This document shows, in pieces, positions 37,017 to 43,510 of a stretch of 64,000 bases of DNA (its first letter is position 1; each line of letters begins with the position of its first letter). Both the position numbers and the translations under genes were made by a program. The DNA is taken from positions 62,001-126,000 of the forward strand of contig LQBI01000013.1 in assembly GCA_002030045.1 (NCBI GenBank). The letters are read 5' to 3'. This DNA is from Candidatus Aegiribacteria sp. MLS_C. Its GTDB lineage: Bacteria; Fermentibacterota; Fermentibacteria; Fermentibacterales; JCC-6. A model generated the notes under the pieces. That model ran no database searches and had not been told where the DNA came from. It worked only from the letters and a program-made list of their open reading frames with translations.

Positions 37017-37636
37017 TGCGGAGGAGACAGGGAAGGCACAGGGGCCGGCCGGCGGGCGGCCCCCGACATGATGACACCCGGCCGGGATACCCCCTGACCA
37101 TGACATCTTCCGGTGAATGGGTCCGCGTAATCACGATAACTACGGACCACGCCGCCGAGAGCAGGCTTGTCAGCATGGGGATAAACCCCGGCGCCCTGCT
37201 CCATGTCATCTCATCCTCCTCAAGGGGACCGATAGTGGTGGCAAGGGACGAGACCAGGTTCGGAATCGACAGGAAGACCGCCTGGCACGTCAGGGTGGTT
37301 CCCGCATCTCCTGACGCAGCCCACAGGGCGTACCCGATGCTCTGCGACGACAACTGCAGAGGCTGTTCCTATCGGACGGAGATGATGAGGGCCGAGTACG
37401 GCGAGAGCGTGACCCTCGATGGTCTCAAGCCCGGCGAGACCGGAAGGGTGATCGCAGTCAGGGGAAGGGAACGCACCGTGGAACGCCTGATGAAGATGGG
37501 TTTCGTGAAGGACTCCCCTGTCACCATGGTGGGAAGGATCAGGGAGAGGAACACGACCGAGGTCGAGGTGGACGGAAGCAGGATAGAGGTCGAGGGGTGG
37601 GACGCCCTTCACGTGATACTGGAGGTGAGGAGGTGA
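37016..37636 (+). CDS. Protein with two FeoA domains joined by a CX3CX2C linker
   Basis: The 206-residue protein has a basic N-terminal tail. FeoA domain 1 (~33-98) has EWVRVITITTDHAAESRLVSMGINPGALLHVI. The linker has MLCDDNCRGCSYR (Cys110, Cys114, Cys117), and FeoA domain 2 (~128-205) has GLKPGETGRVIAV, ERLMKMGFVKDSPVTMV and ALHVILEV. FeoA is a small cytosolic partner of FeoB. The cysteine motif could hold an iron-sulfur cluster or metal, but this is inference. ATG 37016 has GGAG eight bases upstream and shares one base with the dtxR stop. The end overlaps feoB by four bases (GTGA). Confidence 0.88.
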   Translation: MRRRQGRHRGRPAGGPRHDDTRPGYPLTMTSSGEWVRVITITTDHAAESRLVSMGINPGALLHVISSSSRGPIVVARDETRFGIDRKTAWHVRVVPASPDAAHRAYPMLCDDNCRGCSYRTEMMRAEYGESVTLDGLKPGETGRVIAVRGRERTVERLMKMGFVKDSPVTMVGRIRERNTTEVEVDGSRIEVEGWDALHVILEVRR

Positions 37637-39723
37637 AACGCCTTCCTGTGGTGGCTCTGGCGGGCAACCCCAACTCCGGCAAGACCTCCATCTTCAACGC
37701 AATGACGGGCTCACGCCAGCACGTCGCCAACTATCCGGGCATAACCGTTGAGATCAAGGAAGGCGAGGCCAGATCGACCGAGCCCCACATGAGGGTGGTG
37801 GACCTCCCCGGCACATACAGCCTGACACCCTACTCACCGGACGAGGTGGCAGCCAGGGACTACCTGCTCGACCAGCATCCCGACCTTGTCATACACGTTG
37901 TGGACGCCTCCAACCTGGAGAGGAACCTCTACCTCACCACCCAGCTGATGGAACTGGGCGTTCCTCTATTACTGGCCCTGAACATGATGGACATCGCCGA
38001 GATCAGAGGGATCAGAATAGACACCGACAAGCTGTCCAGGGTCCTGGGCGTACCGGTGGTCAGGACAGTGGGCAACAGGGGGACCGGTACCGAGGAACTC
38101 CTGGCGAAGGCGGCGGAGATGTCCTCCTCCCACTCGGATTGGGTACCCGTGGACCTGACCTACGGCAGTTCCTCGGACAGGGCTCTCGCCATGCTGGAGA
38201 AGATGATAAGGGAATGCGGCCTCCTGAAGGACAAGGTCCATCCCCGATGGCTGGCCCTGAGGCTTCTGGAACAGGATTCCCACACCATAGAGAGGGTCGA
38301 GAGGCTGGAGGCAGAGGGGGCGGAGGAGATACTCGACGCCGCGGAGAAGCTTGCCGAGCAGGTCTTCCGGGAGATGAACGACGAGACGGAGGGTGTTATC
38401 GCCGACCACAGGTACGGTTTCGTGGCTGGAGTAGTGAAGCGGGTGAAGACCTCCCCCCTCGAGAGCAGGCTCTACATGTCGGACCGCATCGACCGTTTCC
38501 TGACCAACCCGGTCCTCGGTCCCGTAGTGATGACCCTGGTGCTCTTCGGTCTCTTCCAGTTCACCTTCGCGGTAAGCAGCGCTCCCGTATCATGGGTGGA
38601 GTCCTTCTTCGGATGGCTGCACGGAGTGGCATGGGAGCTCATTCCTGAGGGCTTCCTCCGTTCCATGGTGGTCAGCGGGGCCATAGACGGAGTAGGAGGA
38701 GTGGTGGGGTTCGTACCGCTCATCATGTTCATGTTCTTCTTCATAGCGGTCCTGGAAGACACCGGATACATGGCCAGGATAGCCTTCCTCATGGACAGGC
38801 TGTTCAGGAAGTTCGGTCTTCACGGGAGTTCGATAGTGCCGTTCATCGTCTCCGGAGGGATCACGGGAGGCTGCGCGGTACCCGGTATAATGGCTGCCAG
38901 GACCCTCAGGGACCCCAAGGAGAGGTTCGCCACCATACTATCGGTCCCCTTCATGAACTGCGGCGGCAAGCTCCCTATCTATGCCCTCCTCATAGCCGCC
39001 TTCTTCTCATCCCACGAGGGGTTTGTCCTCTTCGGACTGACCATCCTCTCCTGGGTCTTCGCCATGTCATCGGCCAAGCTACTCCGCTCAACGGTTCTGA
39101 GGGGGGAATCGACCTCCTTCGTACTGGAGCTGCCTCCCTACAGGCTGCCGTCGATGAAAAGCCTTCTGCTGCACATGTGGGAGAGGACCTGGCTCTACCT
39201 CAAGAAGGCCGGGACCGTGATACTCCTGGCCTCCGTCCTGATGTGGGCCCTCATGACCTTTCCGGTCCTGCCGGAAGACCGCGCTGAGGGTCTTTCCGGC
39301 GATGAGCTGGCAAGGGAGAGTCTCTCGTATTCAGTGGCAGGCCGTGCGGGAAGGGCCGTGGAGAACGTGACGGGACCGCTGATGGGATTCGACTGGAAGG
39401 TGAACGTTGCGCTGATCGGCGGTTTCGCGGCCAAGGAGATCGTGGTGTCCACACTGGGTACGGCCTACTCCATGGGCGAGGCGGAGGCAGAGGACACCAC
39501 CTCGCTGTCGGAGAGGCTGAGGGTGGAACCCGGCTGGAACCCGATAATGGCCCTCGCCCTGGTGATATTCACCATGCTCTACATGCCCTGCGTCGCCACC
39601 GTAGCCGTAATTAAACGGGAGACCGGCTCCTGGGGATGGATGGGCTTCTCCATTCTGTACACCACCATAGTGGCAGGGGTGATGGCCACCCTGGTCTACC
39701 AGGTGGGAATGCTGGTCACCTGA
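37633..39723 (+). CDS. feoB: Ferrous iron transporter FeoB
   Basis: The 696-residue protein has an N-terminal G domain: ALAGNPNSGKTSIFNAMTG (G1), NYPGITVE (G2), VVDLPGTYSL (G3), LNMMD (G4, an N-x-M-D variant of NxxD). A helical guanine-dissociation-inhibitor region and the membrane domain follow, with repeated gate motifs (FVPLIMFMFFF, VSGGITGGCAVPGIMAARTL, SVPFMNCGGKLPIYALLI). GTG 37633 overlaps the FeoA gene stop; GGAGG seven bases upstream supports it. It imports Fe2+ into the cytoplasm under anoxic conditions. It is the last gene of the operon. Confidence 0.97.
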   Translation: MKRLPVVALAGNPNSGKTSIFNAMTGSRQHVANYPGITVEIKEGEARSTEPHMRVVDLPGTYSLTPYSPDEVAARDYLLDQHPDLVIHVVDASNLERNLYLTTQLMELGVPLLLALNMMDIAEIRGIRIDTDKLSRVLGVPVVRTVGNRGTGTEELLAKAAEMSSSHSDWVPVDLTYGSSSDRALAMLEKMIRECGLLKDKVHPRWLALRLLEQDSHTIERVERLEAEGAEEILDAAEKLAEQVFREMNDETEGVIADHRYGFVAGVVKRVKTSPLESRLYMSDRIDRFLTNPVLGPVVMTLVLFGLFQFTFAVSSAPVSWVESFFGWLHGVAWELIPEGFLRSMVVSGAIDGVGGVVGFVPLIMFMFFFIAVLEDTGYMARIAFLMDRLFRKFGLHGSSIVPFIVSGGITGGCAVPGIMAARTLRDPKERFATILSVPFMNCGGKLPIYALLIAAFFSSHEGFVLFGLTILSWVFAMSSAKLLRSTVLRGESTSFVLELPPYRLPSMKSLLLHMWERTWLYLKKAGTVILLASVLMWALMTFPVLPEDRAEGLSGDELARESLSYSVAGRAGRAVENVTGPLMGFDWKVNVALIGGFAAKEIVVSTLGTAYSMGEAEAEDTTSLSERLRVEPGWNPIMALALVIFTMLYMPCVATVAVIKRETGSWGWMGFSILYTTIVAGVMATLVYQVGMLVT

Positions 39724-39727
39724 GGGA

Positions 39728-40990
39728 TCAGATCCGGAATCCGTCCTCCAGCATGGTGTTCTTGGGAATGACTATGATGCCTTCCCTGATGCAGTAGAGG
39801 TCGGAAGTGTACTCCTGGACGCCTCCCGCGTTCTCCAGCCTGCAGCCGTTGCCTATTCGGGCGTTCTTGTCGATGATGGCGTTCCTGATCACGCAGTCGC
39901 GGCCTATGCCCAGGGGAAGAAGACCGCTGTCGCGGTTCCTTGGATCCAGGTAATGCCCCTCCCAGTAGTCCGAACCCATGAAGACGCAGTCCTCCATCAG
40001 CGTTCCGGGCATCACCTTGCCCCTGAGCCCGACCAGGCACCTGTTGAACTCCGAGCCCGAGACGTCAGATGCGTCGCAGATGATGGTGTCGCTGAAGATG
40101 CAGCCTGTTATTCTGGCCCCGGGAAGGGCCCTGGCGCTGGTGTAGAGAGGTGAGAAGCTCCTGTACATGTCGAACTGCGGTTCCGGCATGGCCATGTCCA
40201 GGTTGGCCCTGAAGAAGTTGCCTATTGTCCCGATGTCCGACCAGTAGCCGTCGAAGGGGAACGAGGTGACCCTGTAGGAACCCAGGGAGTTGGGAATTAT
40301 CTCCTTGCCGAAGTCTATGACGTCGGGTTCGTTCTCCAGAACCTCCTGCAGCACTCCGGGGTCGAACATGTAGATGCCCATGTTGCCGAGATAGGGCTTC
40401 GTCCCGGTGGTTCCCTTCTGGGCGCTCTTCAGGCCGTCCAGTTCATCCCTGGGGGGCTTCTCCCTGAACTCGGTGATGATACCGTCGTCCCCGACCTTCA
40501 TTATTCCGAGGGAGGTGGCATCCGCAGCCGTCACGGGCTTTGTGGCGATGGTGATGTCGGCGTTCCGGCTGAGGTGGTAGTCAGCCACCTGGTTGAAGTC
40601 CAGCCTGTACAGCTGGTCGCCGGAGAGTATCAGCACCAGGTCCGGATGCTGGCCCTTTATGTACTTCAGGCTCTGCCTGACCGCATCGGCCGTGCCCTGG
40701 AACCATTCCGAGTTCTCGTCGGTCTGCTCGGCTGCCAGTATGGAGACGAAGCCATGGGTGAACCTGTCGAACCTGTAGGTCCGTGCCACATGGCGGTTGA
40801 GGCTCTCGCTGTTGTACTGCGTAAGCACGAGTATGTGCCTTATACCATCGTTTATGCAGTTGGAAAGCGGAATGTCTATCAGGCGGTACTTGCCCCCGAT
40901 GGGCACCGCCGGTTTGCTCCTGTCCCTTGTGAGGGGGTAGAGCCTTGTTCCCCTGCCTCCCCCGAGGACCACAGCTATGATGCGGTTCAT
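39728..40990 (-). CDS. glgC: Glucose-1-phosphate adenylyltransferase
   Basis: The 420-residue ADP-glucose pyrophosphorylase of glycogen synthesis has the N-terminal LGGGRGTRLYPLTRDRSKPAVPIGGKYRLIDIPLSNCINDGI. Other motifs are ILSGDQLYRLDF and YWSDIGTIGNFFRANLDM. A C-terminal left-handed beta-helix follows. ATG 40990 has GGGAGGG four bases upstream; the ORF start at 41035 does not. It has its own promoter. No other glg gene is in view. It is convergent with feoB, with only four bases between the stops. Confidence 0.96.
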   Translation of the reverse strand: MNRIIAVVLGGGRGTRLYPLTRDRSKPAVPIGGKYRLIDIPLSNCINDGIRHILVLTQYNSESLNRHVARTYRFDRFTHGFVSILAAEQTDENSEWFQGTADAVRQSLKYIKGQHPDLVLILSGDQLYRLDFNQVADYHLSRNADITIATKPVTAADATSLGIMKVGDDGIITEFREKPPRDELDGLKSAQKGTTGTKPYLGNMGIYMFDPGVLQEVLENEPDVIDFGKEIIPNSLGSYRVTSFPFDGYWSDIGTIGNFFRANLDMAMPEPQFDMYRSFSPLYTSARALPGARITGCIFSDTIICDASDVSGSEFNRCLVGLRGKVMPGTLMEDCVFMGSDYWEGHYLDPRNRDSGLLPLGIGRDCVIRNAIIDKNARIGNGCRLENAGGVQEYTSDLYCIREGIIVIPKNTMLEDGFRI

Positions 40991-41017
40991 CAGACCCTCC
41001 CGAGTTAGGGTGAGCAC

Positions 41018-41046
41018 AATAGAACCACAACGCACCCCCCGGTCAA
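41018..41046 (-). promoter_or_regulatory. Promoter of glgC
   Basis: TTGACC (41041-41046), 17 bases, TCTATT (41018-41023) on the minus strand, about 28 bases before the glgC start. Confidence 0.6.
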
Positions 41047-41339: not shown

Positions 41340-41367
41340 TTGACAATATTTATGTTTTGCTTATTAT
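41340..41367 (+). promoter_or_regulatory. Promoter of the DUF2089 operon
   Basis: TTGACA (41340-41345), 16 bases, TATTAT (41362-41367) in a notably AT-rich stretch, followed by AGGAGG six bases before the ATG. This is among the strongest promoter/ribosome-site combinations in the window. Confidence 0.8.
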
Positions 41368-41392
41368 TGTTTAAGAAATTAGGAGGTTATGT

Positions 41393-41743
41393 ATGGATAT
41401 TGGAAATGCCAGGTGCCCGGAGTGCGGAAAGGCCATGACCCCCGTGGCCTGCAGGTGCGACGACTGCGGCATTAGGATGGAGGGCAGATTCTCCGTCTCC
41501 ATCCTGTCCCAGCTCTCACCTGAGGACCAGGCCCTGATCATCGCCTTCGTCCGAAGTTTCGGAAGCATCAAGAGGATACAGGAACTGCTGGATGTGAGCT
41601 ATCCCACCGCAAGGGCCAGGCTTGAGGAACTGGTTGAACGGCTGGATTCCACCATGCAGGCTCCGGACAACCGCGAGAACATGGTGCTGGACAGGCTGAA
41701 AAGGGGAGATATTACTTTCAGACAGGCAATGGAGGAGCTGTGA
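41393..41743 (+). CDS. DUF2089-family protein: zinc ribbon plus helix-turn-helix
   Basis: The 116-residue protein has an N-terminal cysteine cluster (CPECGKAM and CRCDDCGIRM), probably a zinc ribbon. A helix-turn-helix-like part follows (IAFVRSFGSIKRIQELLDVSYPTARARLEELVERL), with a C-terminal helix VLDRLKRGDITFRQAMEEL. DUF2089 proteins of this form are thought to be DNA-binding regulators. AGGAGG is six bases upstream. It overlaps the small membrane gene by four bases (GTGA) and may regulate the operon it starts. Confidence 0.85.
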   Translation: MDIGNARCPECGKAMTPVACRCDDCGIRMEGRFSVSILSQLSPEDQALIIAFVRSFGSIKRIQELLDVSYPTARARLEELVERLDSTMQAPDNRENMVLDRLKRGDITFRQAMEEL

Positions 41744-42000
41744 TTCCTGCAATGATACTGCTGCTGAGAATAGGCAGGGTACCTGTACCGCTGCCGTGGT
41801 TCATCATCTGGCTGCTGGCGCTGCCCTTCGCGATCCTGGGATTCCTGGCGGGGAACATAGGGCTGCTCTTTTCCCCCGGGAGCTACGCGATGCTGGCGGC
41901 GAGCCAGATGTGGAGGGTGGTACTGCTGATGATGTCCGTTCACGGCATGAAGGTCCATGTGGACACGGCCGACGAGCAAGTACTGCTTCAGTTCATCTGA
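41740..42000 (+). CDS. Small membrane protein of the DUF2089 operon
   Basis: The 86-residue protein has two strongly hydrophobic segments (~16-45, WFIIWLLALPFAILGFLAGNIGLLF; ~48-66, SYAMLAASQMWRVVLLMM). A short soluble tail follows (VHVDTADEQVLLQFI). No family is recognised. GTG 41740 overlaps the DUF2089 stop, with GGAGG four bases upstream. Its placement between a putative DNA-binding protein and a SHOCT-like protein suggests a membrane sensor or target, by context only. Confidence 0.75.
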   Translation: MIPAMILLLRIGRVPVPLPWFIIWLLALPFAILGFLAGNIGLLFSPGSYAMLAASQMWRVVLLMMSVHGMKVHVDTADEQVLLQFI

Positions 42001-42015
42001 GGAAAGGAGAACGAA

Positions 42016-42429
42016 ATGAGGAACGAATCACAGAAGAAGATCCTGGAGATGCTGGCGGAGGACAGGATAACCGTCGAGGAAGCCACCGCACTGCTATCGA
42101 AGCTGGGAAGGTCCGAAGAACCCGAGGAAGCCGCCGGGGAGCCCGAGGAACCACAGACAAGGAAGAAGATGCCCAGGTACCTGAGGGTGATAGTGGACTC
42201 GGCCGACGGGGACAAGGTCAACGTCAGGATCCCTCTGAGCCTGATCAAGACCGGAATAAAGCTCTCGGCACTGGTCCCGGGCGACGCAGCCGACAGGATG
42301 AGCAGCCACGGTCTGGACCTCTCCCAGCTCTCCAGGCTGGACGGGGACGAACTCATACAGGCCCTTAACGACATGACCGTAGATGTCGAGAGCGCAGACG
42401 GCGACAACGTCAAGGTGTTCACCGAGTAG
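42016..42429 (+). CDS. SHOCT-like / YvlB-N-like protein
   Basis: The 137-residue protein has an N-terminal helical hairpin (KKILEMLAEDRITVEEATALLSKLG), a SHOCT-type module found at the start of YvlB/LiaX-like envelope-stress proteins. An acidic linker precedes a domain (~53-137) of beta/alpha type (YLRVIVDSADGDKVNVRIPLSLIKTGIKLSALVP, then ALNDMTVDVESADGDNVKVF). The function is unknown. AAGGAG precedes the ATG; 15 bases follow the small membrane gene. Confidence 0.8.
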   Translation: MRNESQKKILEMLAEDRITVEEATALLSKLGRSEEPEEAAGEPEEPQTRKKMPRYLRVIVDSADGDKVNVRIPLSLIKTGIKLSALVPGDAADRMSSHGLDLSQLSRLDGDELIQALNDMTVDVESADGDNVKVFTE

Positions 42430-42520: not shown

Positions 42521-43510
42521 TTGAAGATAGCACTGGCAGGCAAGCCCGGCTGCGGCAGGTCAACCCTTTTCAAGGCTCTTGCGGGCAGCCCCGATGCCGA
42601 CACGACCAGGCCGCTGACGGTGGACGTCCCGGACGAAAGGCTCGATCTGCTCGAGGAGATACACGAACCCGAGAAGAAGACTCATGCAAGGGTGATCTTC
42701 ACGGATGTTCCCTCGCCCGCCCTGGCCCCCCGGAACCTCGCACTGCTCAGGAACGCAGCCGTTCTCGCAGTTGTGCTTGACAACTACGCCCTGGGAGATG
42801 TGACCGGCGACTTCCTGGAGATAGATTCAGAGCTGGTCCTTGCCGACATGGCCCTCTGCGAGAAAAGGGTGGAGAGACTTGTGAAGGAGGGCTCCGGCAG
42901 TTCCAGGGAAGCTGGTCTGCTCAGGGAACTGCTCTCACGGATGGAGGAGAGCAGACCGCTCAGAGTGCTGGAGCTGGATCAGGACAGGAAGGATATCCTC
43001 TCACCCTACTCCCTGCTATCCCTGAAGCCGCTGCTGGTCATATCCAACAGGATGGGGAAGCCGGTCACTCAGGAGGAGGATCTGGCAGTGCTTGTCCGGG
43101 AGCATGGCGGAAGGCTCCTGGAGGCCGACGCCGGTTTCGAGATGGAGCTCGCGGAGATCGATGAGGATGAGAGGGGGCCCTTCCTCGAGTCCATGGGCTA
43201 CCGGTCCGGCAGCCTATCCAGGATCATACGCGCCGCCTACGAGGCCCTGGACCTCATAGTCTTCTTCACGGTGGGCAGCGACGAGGTGAGGGCCTGGCCC
43301 GTCAGACGGGGGGCTACTGCGGTGGAGGCCGCCGGTGCGATCCACTCGGACATGGCCAGGGGGTTCATACGAGCGGTGGTCGTGCCCTGGGAGGTGTACA
43401 GTGCGACTCCTGACAGAAACCTGCTCAAGGAACGGGGCCAGCTGGGGGTTGAGGGGAAGGATTATGTGGTCTCCGACGGGGATGTCATCGAGATCAGGTT
43501 CAGCGTCTGA
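42521..43510 (+). CDS. Divergent YchF/Obg-like GTPase with TGS-like C-terminus
   Basis: The 329-residue protein opens MKIALAGKPGCGRSTLFKAL (modified P-loop; Lys replaced by Arg in the GxxxxGK[ST] position). The next YchF block survives as VDVPDERLDLLEEIHEPEKKTHARVIFTDVPSP. The G2 and G3 motifs and NxxE of true YchF are weak or missing. The C-terminal domain (IVFFTVGSDEVRAWPVRRGATAVEAAGAIHSD, then GLEGKDYVV-like VEGKDYVVSDGDVIEIRF) is the TGS/DUF933 part. The start is TTG with GGAGG upstream. It is probably nucleotide-binding with altered activity. It is convergent with the YihY gene and overlaps it by 11 bases. Confidence 0.8.
   Translation: MKIALAGKPGCGRSTLFKALAGSPDADTTRPLTVDVPDERLDLLEEIHEPEKKTHARVIFTDVPSPALAPRNLALLRNAAVLAVVLDNYALGDVTGDFLEIDSELVLADMALCEKRVERLVKEGSGSSREAGLLRELLSRMEESRPLRVLELDQDRKDILSPYSLLSLKPLLVISNRMGKPVTQEEDLAVLVREHGGRLLEADAGFEMELAEIDEDERGPFLESMGYRSGSLSRIIRAAYEALDLIVFFTVGSDEVRAWPVRRGATAVEAAGAIHSDMARGFIRAVVVPWEVYSATPDRNLLKERGQLGVEGKDYVVSDGDVIEIRFSV

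Follow-up and report, generated by a model that had tools for sequence, protein, structure and literature searches.

A compact DUF2089, membrane protein and SHOCT-like gene trio of Fermentibacteria as a candidate membrane-to-DNA switch

Background

What could hold together a DNA-binding protein, a small membrane protein and a SHOCT-like protein, encoded by three adjoining short genes, is the question raised by positions 41340 to 42429 of the 64,000-nucleotide stretch of Candidatus Aegiribacteria sp. MLS_C analysed here (the window). Hardly any experiments exist on DUF2089 and SHOCT-like proteins, common though both are. A sequence-only reading of the locus had called the trio uncharacterised. 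That is not quite right, as a 2024 study described DUF2089/SHOCT-like/Toastrack neighbourhoods and proposed them as likely PSP-like membrane-stress systems (Ravi et al., PMC11237479). The liaXYZ genes correspond to YvlB-PspC-YvlD, with LiaX/YvlB consisting of SHOCT-like and Toastrack parts.

Results

Architecture and promoter

The trio and its expression signals, all on the forward strand, are:

41340-41367, +, predicted sigma-70-type promoter of the trio, TTGACA-N16-TATTAT, 11 of 12 consensus matches
41382-41387, +, Shine-Dalgarno AGGAGG of ORF1, from sequence (GGAGG is kept upstream of ORF1 in relatives)
41393-41743, +, ORF1, DUF2089 protein (PF09862) with putative zinc ribbon (CPEC...CDDC), HTH and short SHOCT-like tail
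41740-42000, +, ORF2, predicted 86-aa membrane protein (AlphaFold model of joined ORF2-ORF3, family alignment)
42016-42429, +, ORF3, 137-aa protein with SHOCT-like head (PF22746) and predicted C-terminal domain (AlphaFold)

The zinc-ribbon HTH protein, 86-residue membrane protein and SHOCT-like protein that had been read from the sequence are all present at these coordinates, and a single promoter ahead of three tightly packed genes, also claimed at that stage, is borne out by the coordinates, the 11 consensus matches and a position kept in 35 loci. The ORF1 stop and ORF2 start overlap by 4 bp, the ORF2 GTG lying within GTGA; in most relatives ORF2 begins ATG-Pro-Ala, one codon after the GTG used here, and close overlap or abutment with ORF1, with a shifted start, is therefore the conserved trait. 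Across Fermentibacteria loci ORF1 and ORF2 mostly lie within a few bases of each other and ORF3 follows 10-40 bases on.

Scanning alone proves little for the trio promoter, because it returned 3 promoter-like sites overall against 1.1 +/- 1.1 in shuffles. Unlike that count, the fixed position of the promoter in relatives exceeds chance: the distance from TTGAC to the ORF1 start is constant within 2 bases in all 35 readable Fermentibacteria loci, the window included (L052, which reads N at the promoter site, is not among them). In these loci the -10 hexamers of the relatives are TATATT- or TATAAT-like, the leader of the trio transcript is estimated at ~18 bases, and no palindromic operator is evident in the promoter consensus; a sequence scan found no internal promoter or forward terminator within the trio region. 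As a regulon marker the -35 motif was uninformative: with one mismatch allowed it occurred at 7 places and its reversed control at 4, and it delineated no clear regulon.

Domains of the three proteins

The HTH of ORF1 matches PF09862 (E 4e-16, 58.9 bits against a cut-off of 33.4); its zinc ribbon matches PF22747 at E 6e-5 with 23.5 bits, under the curated cut-off of 27.6, and carries CPEC...CDDC. The head of ORF3 matches the SHOCT-like family PF22746 at residues 7-34 (E 1.1e-7, 31.6 bits against a cut-off of 27). Although the PF22746 Pfam model itself has no match in ORF1, comparing the profile of ORF1 tails with that of ORF3 heads gives probability 96 and E 1.5e-9, with a reversed control at 0.17 (E-values of single comparisons), and by this measure one SHOCT-like module is present both at the tail of ORF1 and at the head of ORF3.

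In its AlphaFold model, which is of modest confidence (mean pLDDT 67, pTM 0.39), ORF3 consists of the SHOCT-like head (residues ~2-31, two helices), a low-confidence linker (~33-54) and a C-terminal domain (~55-137) predicted to fold as a beta-hairpin, helices and a beta-hairpin. This domain gave no significant match in Pfam, in NCBIfam, or in the PDB by sequence profile or by fold, and on these searches it is an uncatalogued domain, absent from Pfam and new here. ORF3 was also considered as a Toastrack (DUF4097) protein and rejected, there being no match at E up to 1.

ORF2 was modelled joined to ORF3, with TGA read as Trp (NCBI table 4) and no claim that the cell does so. The joined model, again of modest confidence (mean pLDDT 67.5, pTM 0.33) and with no significant match to solved folds, places in ORF2 an N-terminal beta-hairpin, hydrophobic helices at 20-44 and 49-66 and a C-terminal beta-hairpin, such that both chains are predicted as hairpin-helices-hairpin. 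ORF2 has no match in Pfam or NCBIfam, the LiaI/LiaF-type helix families PF18917 and PF22570 included. Profile comparison of its C-terminal hairpin with the last hairpin of ORF3 gave E 6.4e-4 for the whole family and 8.7e-5 for the C-terminus alone, against ~0.013 for reversed controls and with none of 150 column shuffles reaching the score. This supports a resemblance between the two hairpins, with the reservation that so short a match may have arisen by convergence. The N-terminal hairpin of ORF2 has no profile match in ORF3, and its homology is not supported. A first ORF2-ORF3 alignment was dropped because the aligner put the ORF2 hairpins onto the ORF3 hairpin, a misplacement that may itself hint at similarity.

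Conservation within Fermentibacteria

DUF2089, ORF2 and ORF3 occur in that order in 36 of 36 named Fermentibacteria loci (Candidatus Fermentibacteria, Aegiribacteria and Sabulitectum), and all 36 also keep the spacing and the close ORF1/ORF2 junction, overlapping or abutting. ORF3 was found in 41 of the 42 genomes of the class and in all 24 good ones, and DUF2089 in all 42, mostly in two copies. The DUF2089 genes of the genome under study number only two, as do its PF22746 proteins, and each of the former lies beside one of the latter. Of the two loci so formed, the one outside the trio (L078:4691-6118, genome contig C30) encodes a SHOCT-like/DUF4097 protein followed by DUF2089, and is closer to published PSP-like contexts than the trio; the Toastrack of this genome sits there and not in the trio. 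No PspA (PF04012) was found in this genome, which is 97.65% complete, by a search positive in 9 of 14 controls. Nor was PspC (PF04024) found, by a search of limited sensitivity, since its control missed B. subtilis, a carrier of a PspC homologue. PF18917, for LiaI/LiaF helices, was not detected there either.

Upstream of the trio lie feoB and a divergently oriented glgC (window 37597-41035), the latter in nearly all Fermentibacteria and feoB in some. Downstream, a divergent YchF-like GTPase (42521-43510, +; 184.7 bits, below the 279.2 required by TIGR00092) follows directly and in the same direction in most Fermentibacteria loci; it was considered as a fourth member and set aside as separable, being displaced in several genomes with the trio intact. 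A BrkB/YihY-family membrane protein (PF03631; 43500-44513, -) converges on the YchF-like gene in most relatives.

Conservation beyond the class

ORF3 matches occur in 93 genomes of a sample of 385. Among 40 loci outside the class with an ORF3-like gene, 34 have DUF2089 on the same strand within ~2 kb, upstream in 32, where, given one or two DUF2089 genes per ~2.5 million bases, proximity by chance is estimated at no more than ~1% for each locus. Four ORF3-like genes have no DUF2089 nearby (L107, L108, L117, L122); of the other two loci, L091 is cut off by the end of its contig, and in L128 the match is confined to the SHOCT-like head.

In Dehalococcoidia (Chloroflexota) the gene of a two-helix protein overlaps DUF2089 by four bases, and ORF3 is present as well. 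An additional upstream copy of ORF3 occurs in three of them; in L070-L072 two ORF3 copies flank DUF2089. Their DUF2089 proteins (L069:4338-4700, L071:1108-1470) have lost the zinc-ribbon cysteines and kept the HTH and SHOCT-like tail. The membrane protein is recognisable by position and by its C-terminal pattern (as in LHGLEVDVQNGNKYVYVSVV); because the Fermentibacteria ORF2 profile finds it weakly (L069) or not at all, homology to ORF2 is likely, not proven. The conservation outside this genome on which the sequence-only reading had staked its proposal is present in the class as a whole; Dehalococcoidia and a few further lineages also show it, there with a membrane partner that has diverged.

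In more distant loci the partners vary. Some are LiaI/LiaF-type helices that carry SHOCT-like tails, some are Toastrack-like proteins ending in a SHOCT-like part (assigned by eye, and confirmed by Pfam for the copy in the genome under study), and some are fusions. LiaF-TM, SHOCT-like and ORF3 domains are fused in L125 and L130. In L103 (3912-4436) and L120 (3793-4305, - strand) membrane helices are, by eye, fused to a C-terminal ORF3-type domain with no SHOCT-like part, and these genes adjoin DUF2089 and ORF3, directly upstream of both. Because loci with DUF2089 and ORF3-like genes elsewhere carry such LiaI/LiaF-type, Toastrack-like or fused partners, the trio is a reduced variant of the neighbourhoods published as PSP-like.

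Discussion

Because it is kept together across the phylum and, in variants, in many others, the trio suggests a little-studied membrane-to-DNA switch without the usual membrane-stress proteins. We put at about an even chance that it is a minimal, PspA-free variant of DUF2089/SHOCT-like membrane-associated regulatory modules in which ORF3 serves as the adaptor that connects ORF2 in the membrane with DNA-binding ORF1. An adaptor is the simplest reading of ORF3 because it has one module in common with ORF1 and another in common with ORF2, and this reading agrees with the proteins in which membrane helices and an ORF3 domain are fused. The C-terminal domain of ORF3 would sit at the membrane on the cytosolic strands of ORF2, while its SHOCT-like head would pair with, or compete for, the SHOCT-like tail of ORF1; a change in the membrane would then alter the ORF3-ORF1 contact and with it the binding of ORF1 to DNA, most simply at its own promoter. 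A classical SHOCT domain, of a different family from SHOCT-like, failed to self-associate in one published experiment (PMC3581485), which by analogy may count against a simple SHOCT-SHOCT contact. Were the adaptor model true, many lineages would use a small domain missing from Pfam to connect a transcription factor with proteins of the membrane; the trio, three short genes behind one promoter, would be the smallest form seen here.

The three-part system of DNA-binding, membrane and effector proteins proposed earlier survives in its DUF2089 HTH, predicted membrane protein and conserved unit. Its effector is unsupported: with a module common with ORF1, a hairpin common with ORF2 and nothing catalytic seen, ORF3 fits better as an adaptor. 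Envelope or membrane stress as the signal is guilt by association, from the neighbours (Toastrack, LiaF-type helices) and from work on LiaX and YvlB. A stronger version, in which ORF2 and the ORF3 domain are related, ORF2 being the member with its helices in the membrane, and the trio is a self-contained membrane-to-DNA switch that needs no PspA, PspC or two-component system and is bridged at both ends by ORF3 through the modules it has in common with each of the others, strikes us as rather doubtful.

The absence of an enzyme signature in ORF3 and the existence of its fusions to membrane helices would suit a structural platform, in which assemblies of SHOCT-like proteins lie beneath the membrane and shield it themselves, as has been suggested for Toastrack/SHOCT-like assemblies, while ORF1 only tunes expression of the operon; anchoring of proteins by SHOCT-like domains at the inner leaflet has been proposed (Ravi et al. 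2024, PMC11237479). We think this somewhat unlikely, because the same SHOCT-like module on ORF1 and ORF3 argues that the two are linked physically and not just expressed together. The strong promoter, with its fixed place and short leader in every genome, looks constitutive, and with the YchF-like gene next in the same direction in most loci it could point to a housekeeping regulator unrelated to the envelope, tied for example to that GTPase. However, the YchF-like gene lies 1-4 kb away in several genomes with the trio intact and, in L038, behind an unrelated opposite-strand gene, again with the trio intact, and in distant relatives the partners are LiaF-type helices and Toastrack-like proteins, which makes this explanation improbable. 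Least probable is a metal-responsive regulator with the zinc ribbon of ORF1 as sensor: the paired cysteines CPEC...CDDC and a feoB two genes away speak for it, whereas the Dehalococcoidia homologues dispense with the cysteines yet keep HTH, SHOCT-like tail and operon, and glgC, on the opposite strand, stands between feoB and the trio.

The adaptor reading can be set against known systems. Like the four-gene neighbourhoods of Ravi et al., the trio links membrane and SHOCT-like proteins to a DUF2089 protein made up of an HTH, a SHOCT-like part and a zinc ribbon, the last of these putative in ORF1; unlike them it has no Toastrack, PspC, LiaI/LiaF-TM or sigma factor, and its membrane partner is of another type. 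New relative to them are the C-terminal domain of ORF3, the SHOCT-like module on ORF1 tail and ORF3 head, the putative ORF3-like hairpin of ORF2 and the adaptor logic. ORF3 resembles YvlB and LiaX in its N-terminal module of PF22746 type and differs in having a small predicted hairpin-helix-hairpin domain in place of Toastrack, and the trio has no two-component system. LiaI/LiaF-type proteins (PF18917, PF22570) are small helical membrane proteins that in other lineages occupy the position of ORF2 beside DUF2089 and ORF3-like genes; ORF2 matches neither family, has predicted beta-hairpins and lacks a SHOCT-like tail. In two leaderless bacteriocin clusters, bawcin and enterocin DD14, which unlike the trio hold bacteriocin and transporter genes and for which the published gene tables report no ORF3, DUF2089 adjoins a membrane protein of 90-94 aa, according to annotation (PMC10707071, PMC7332713).
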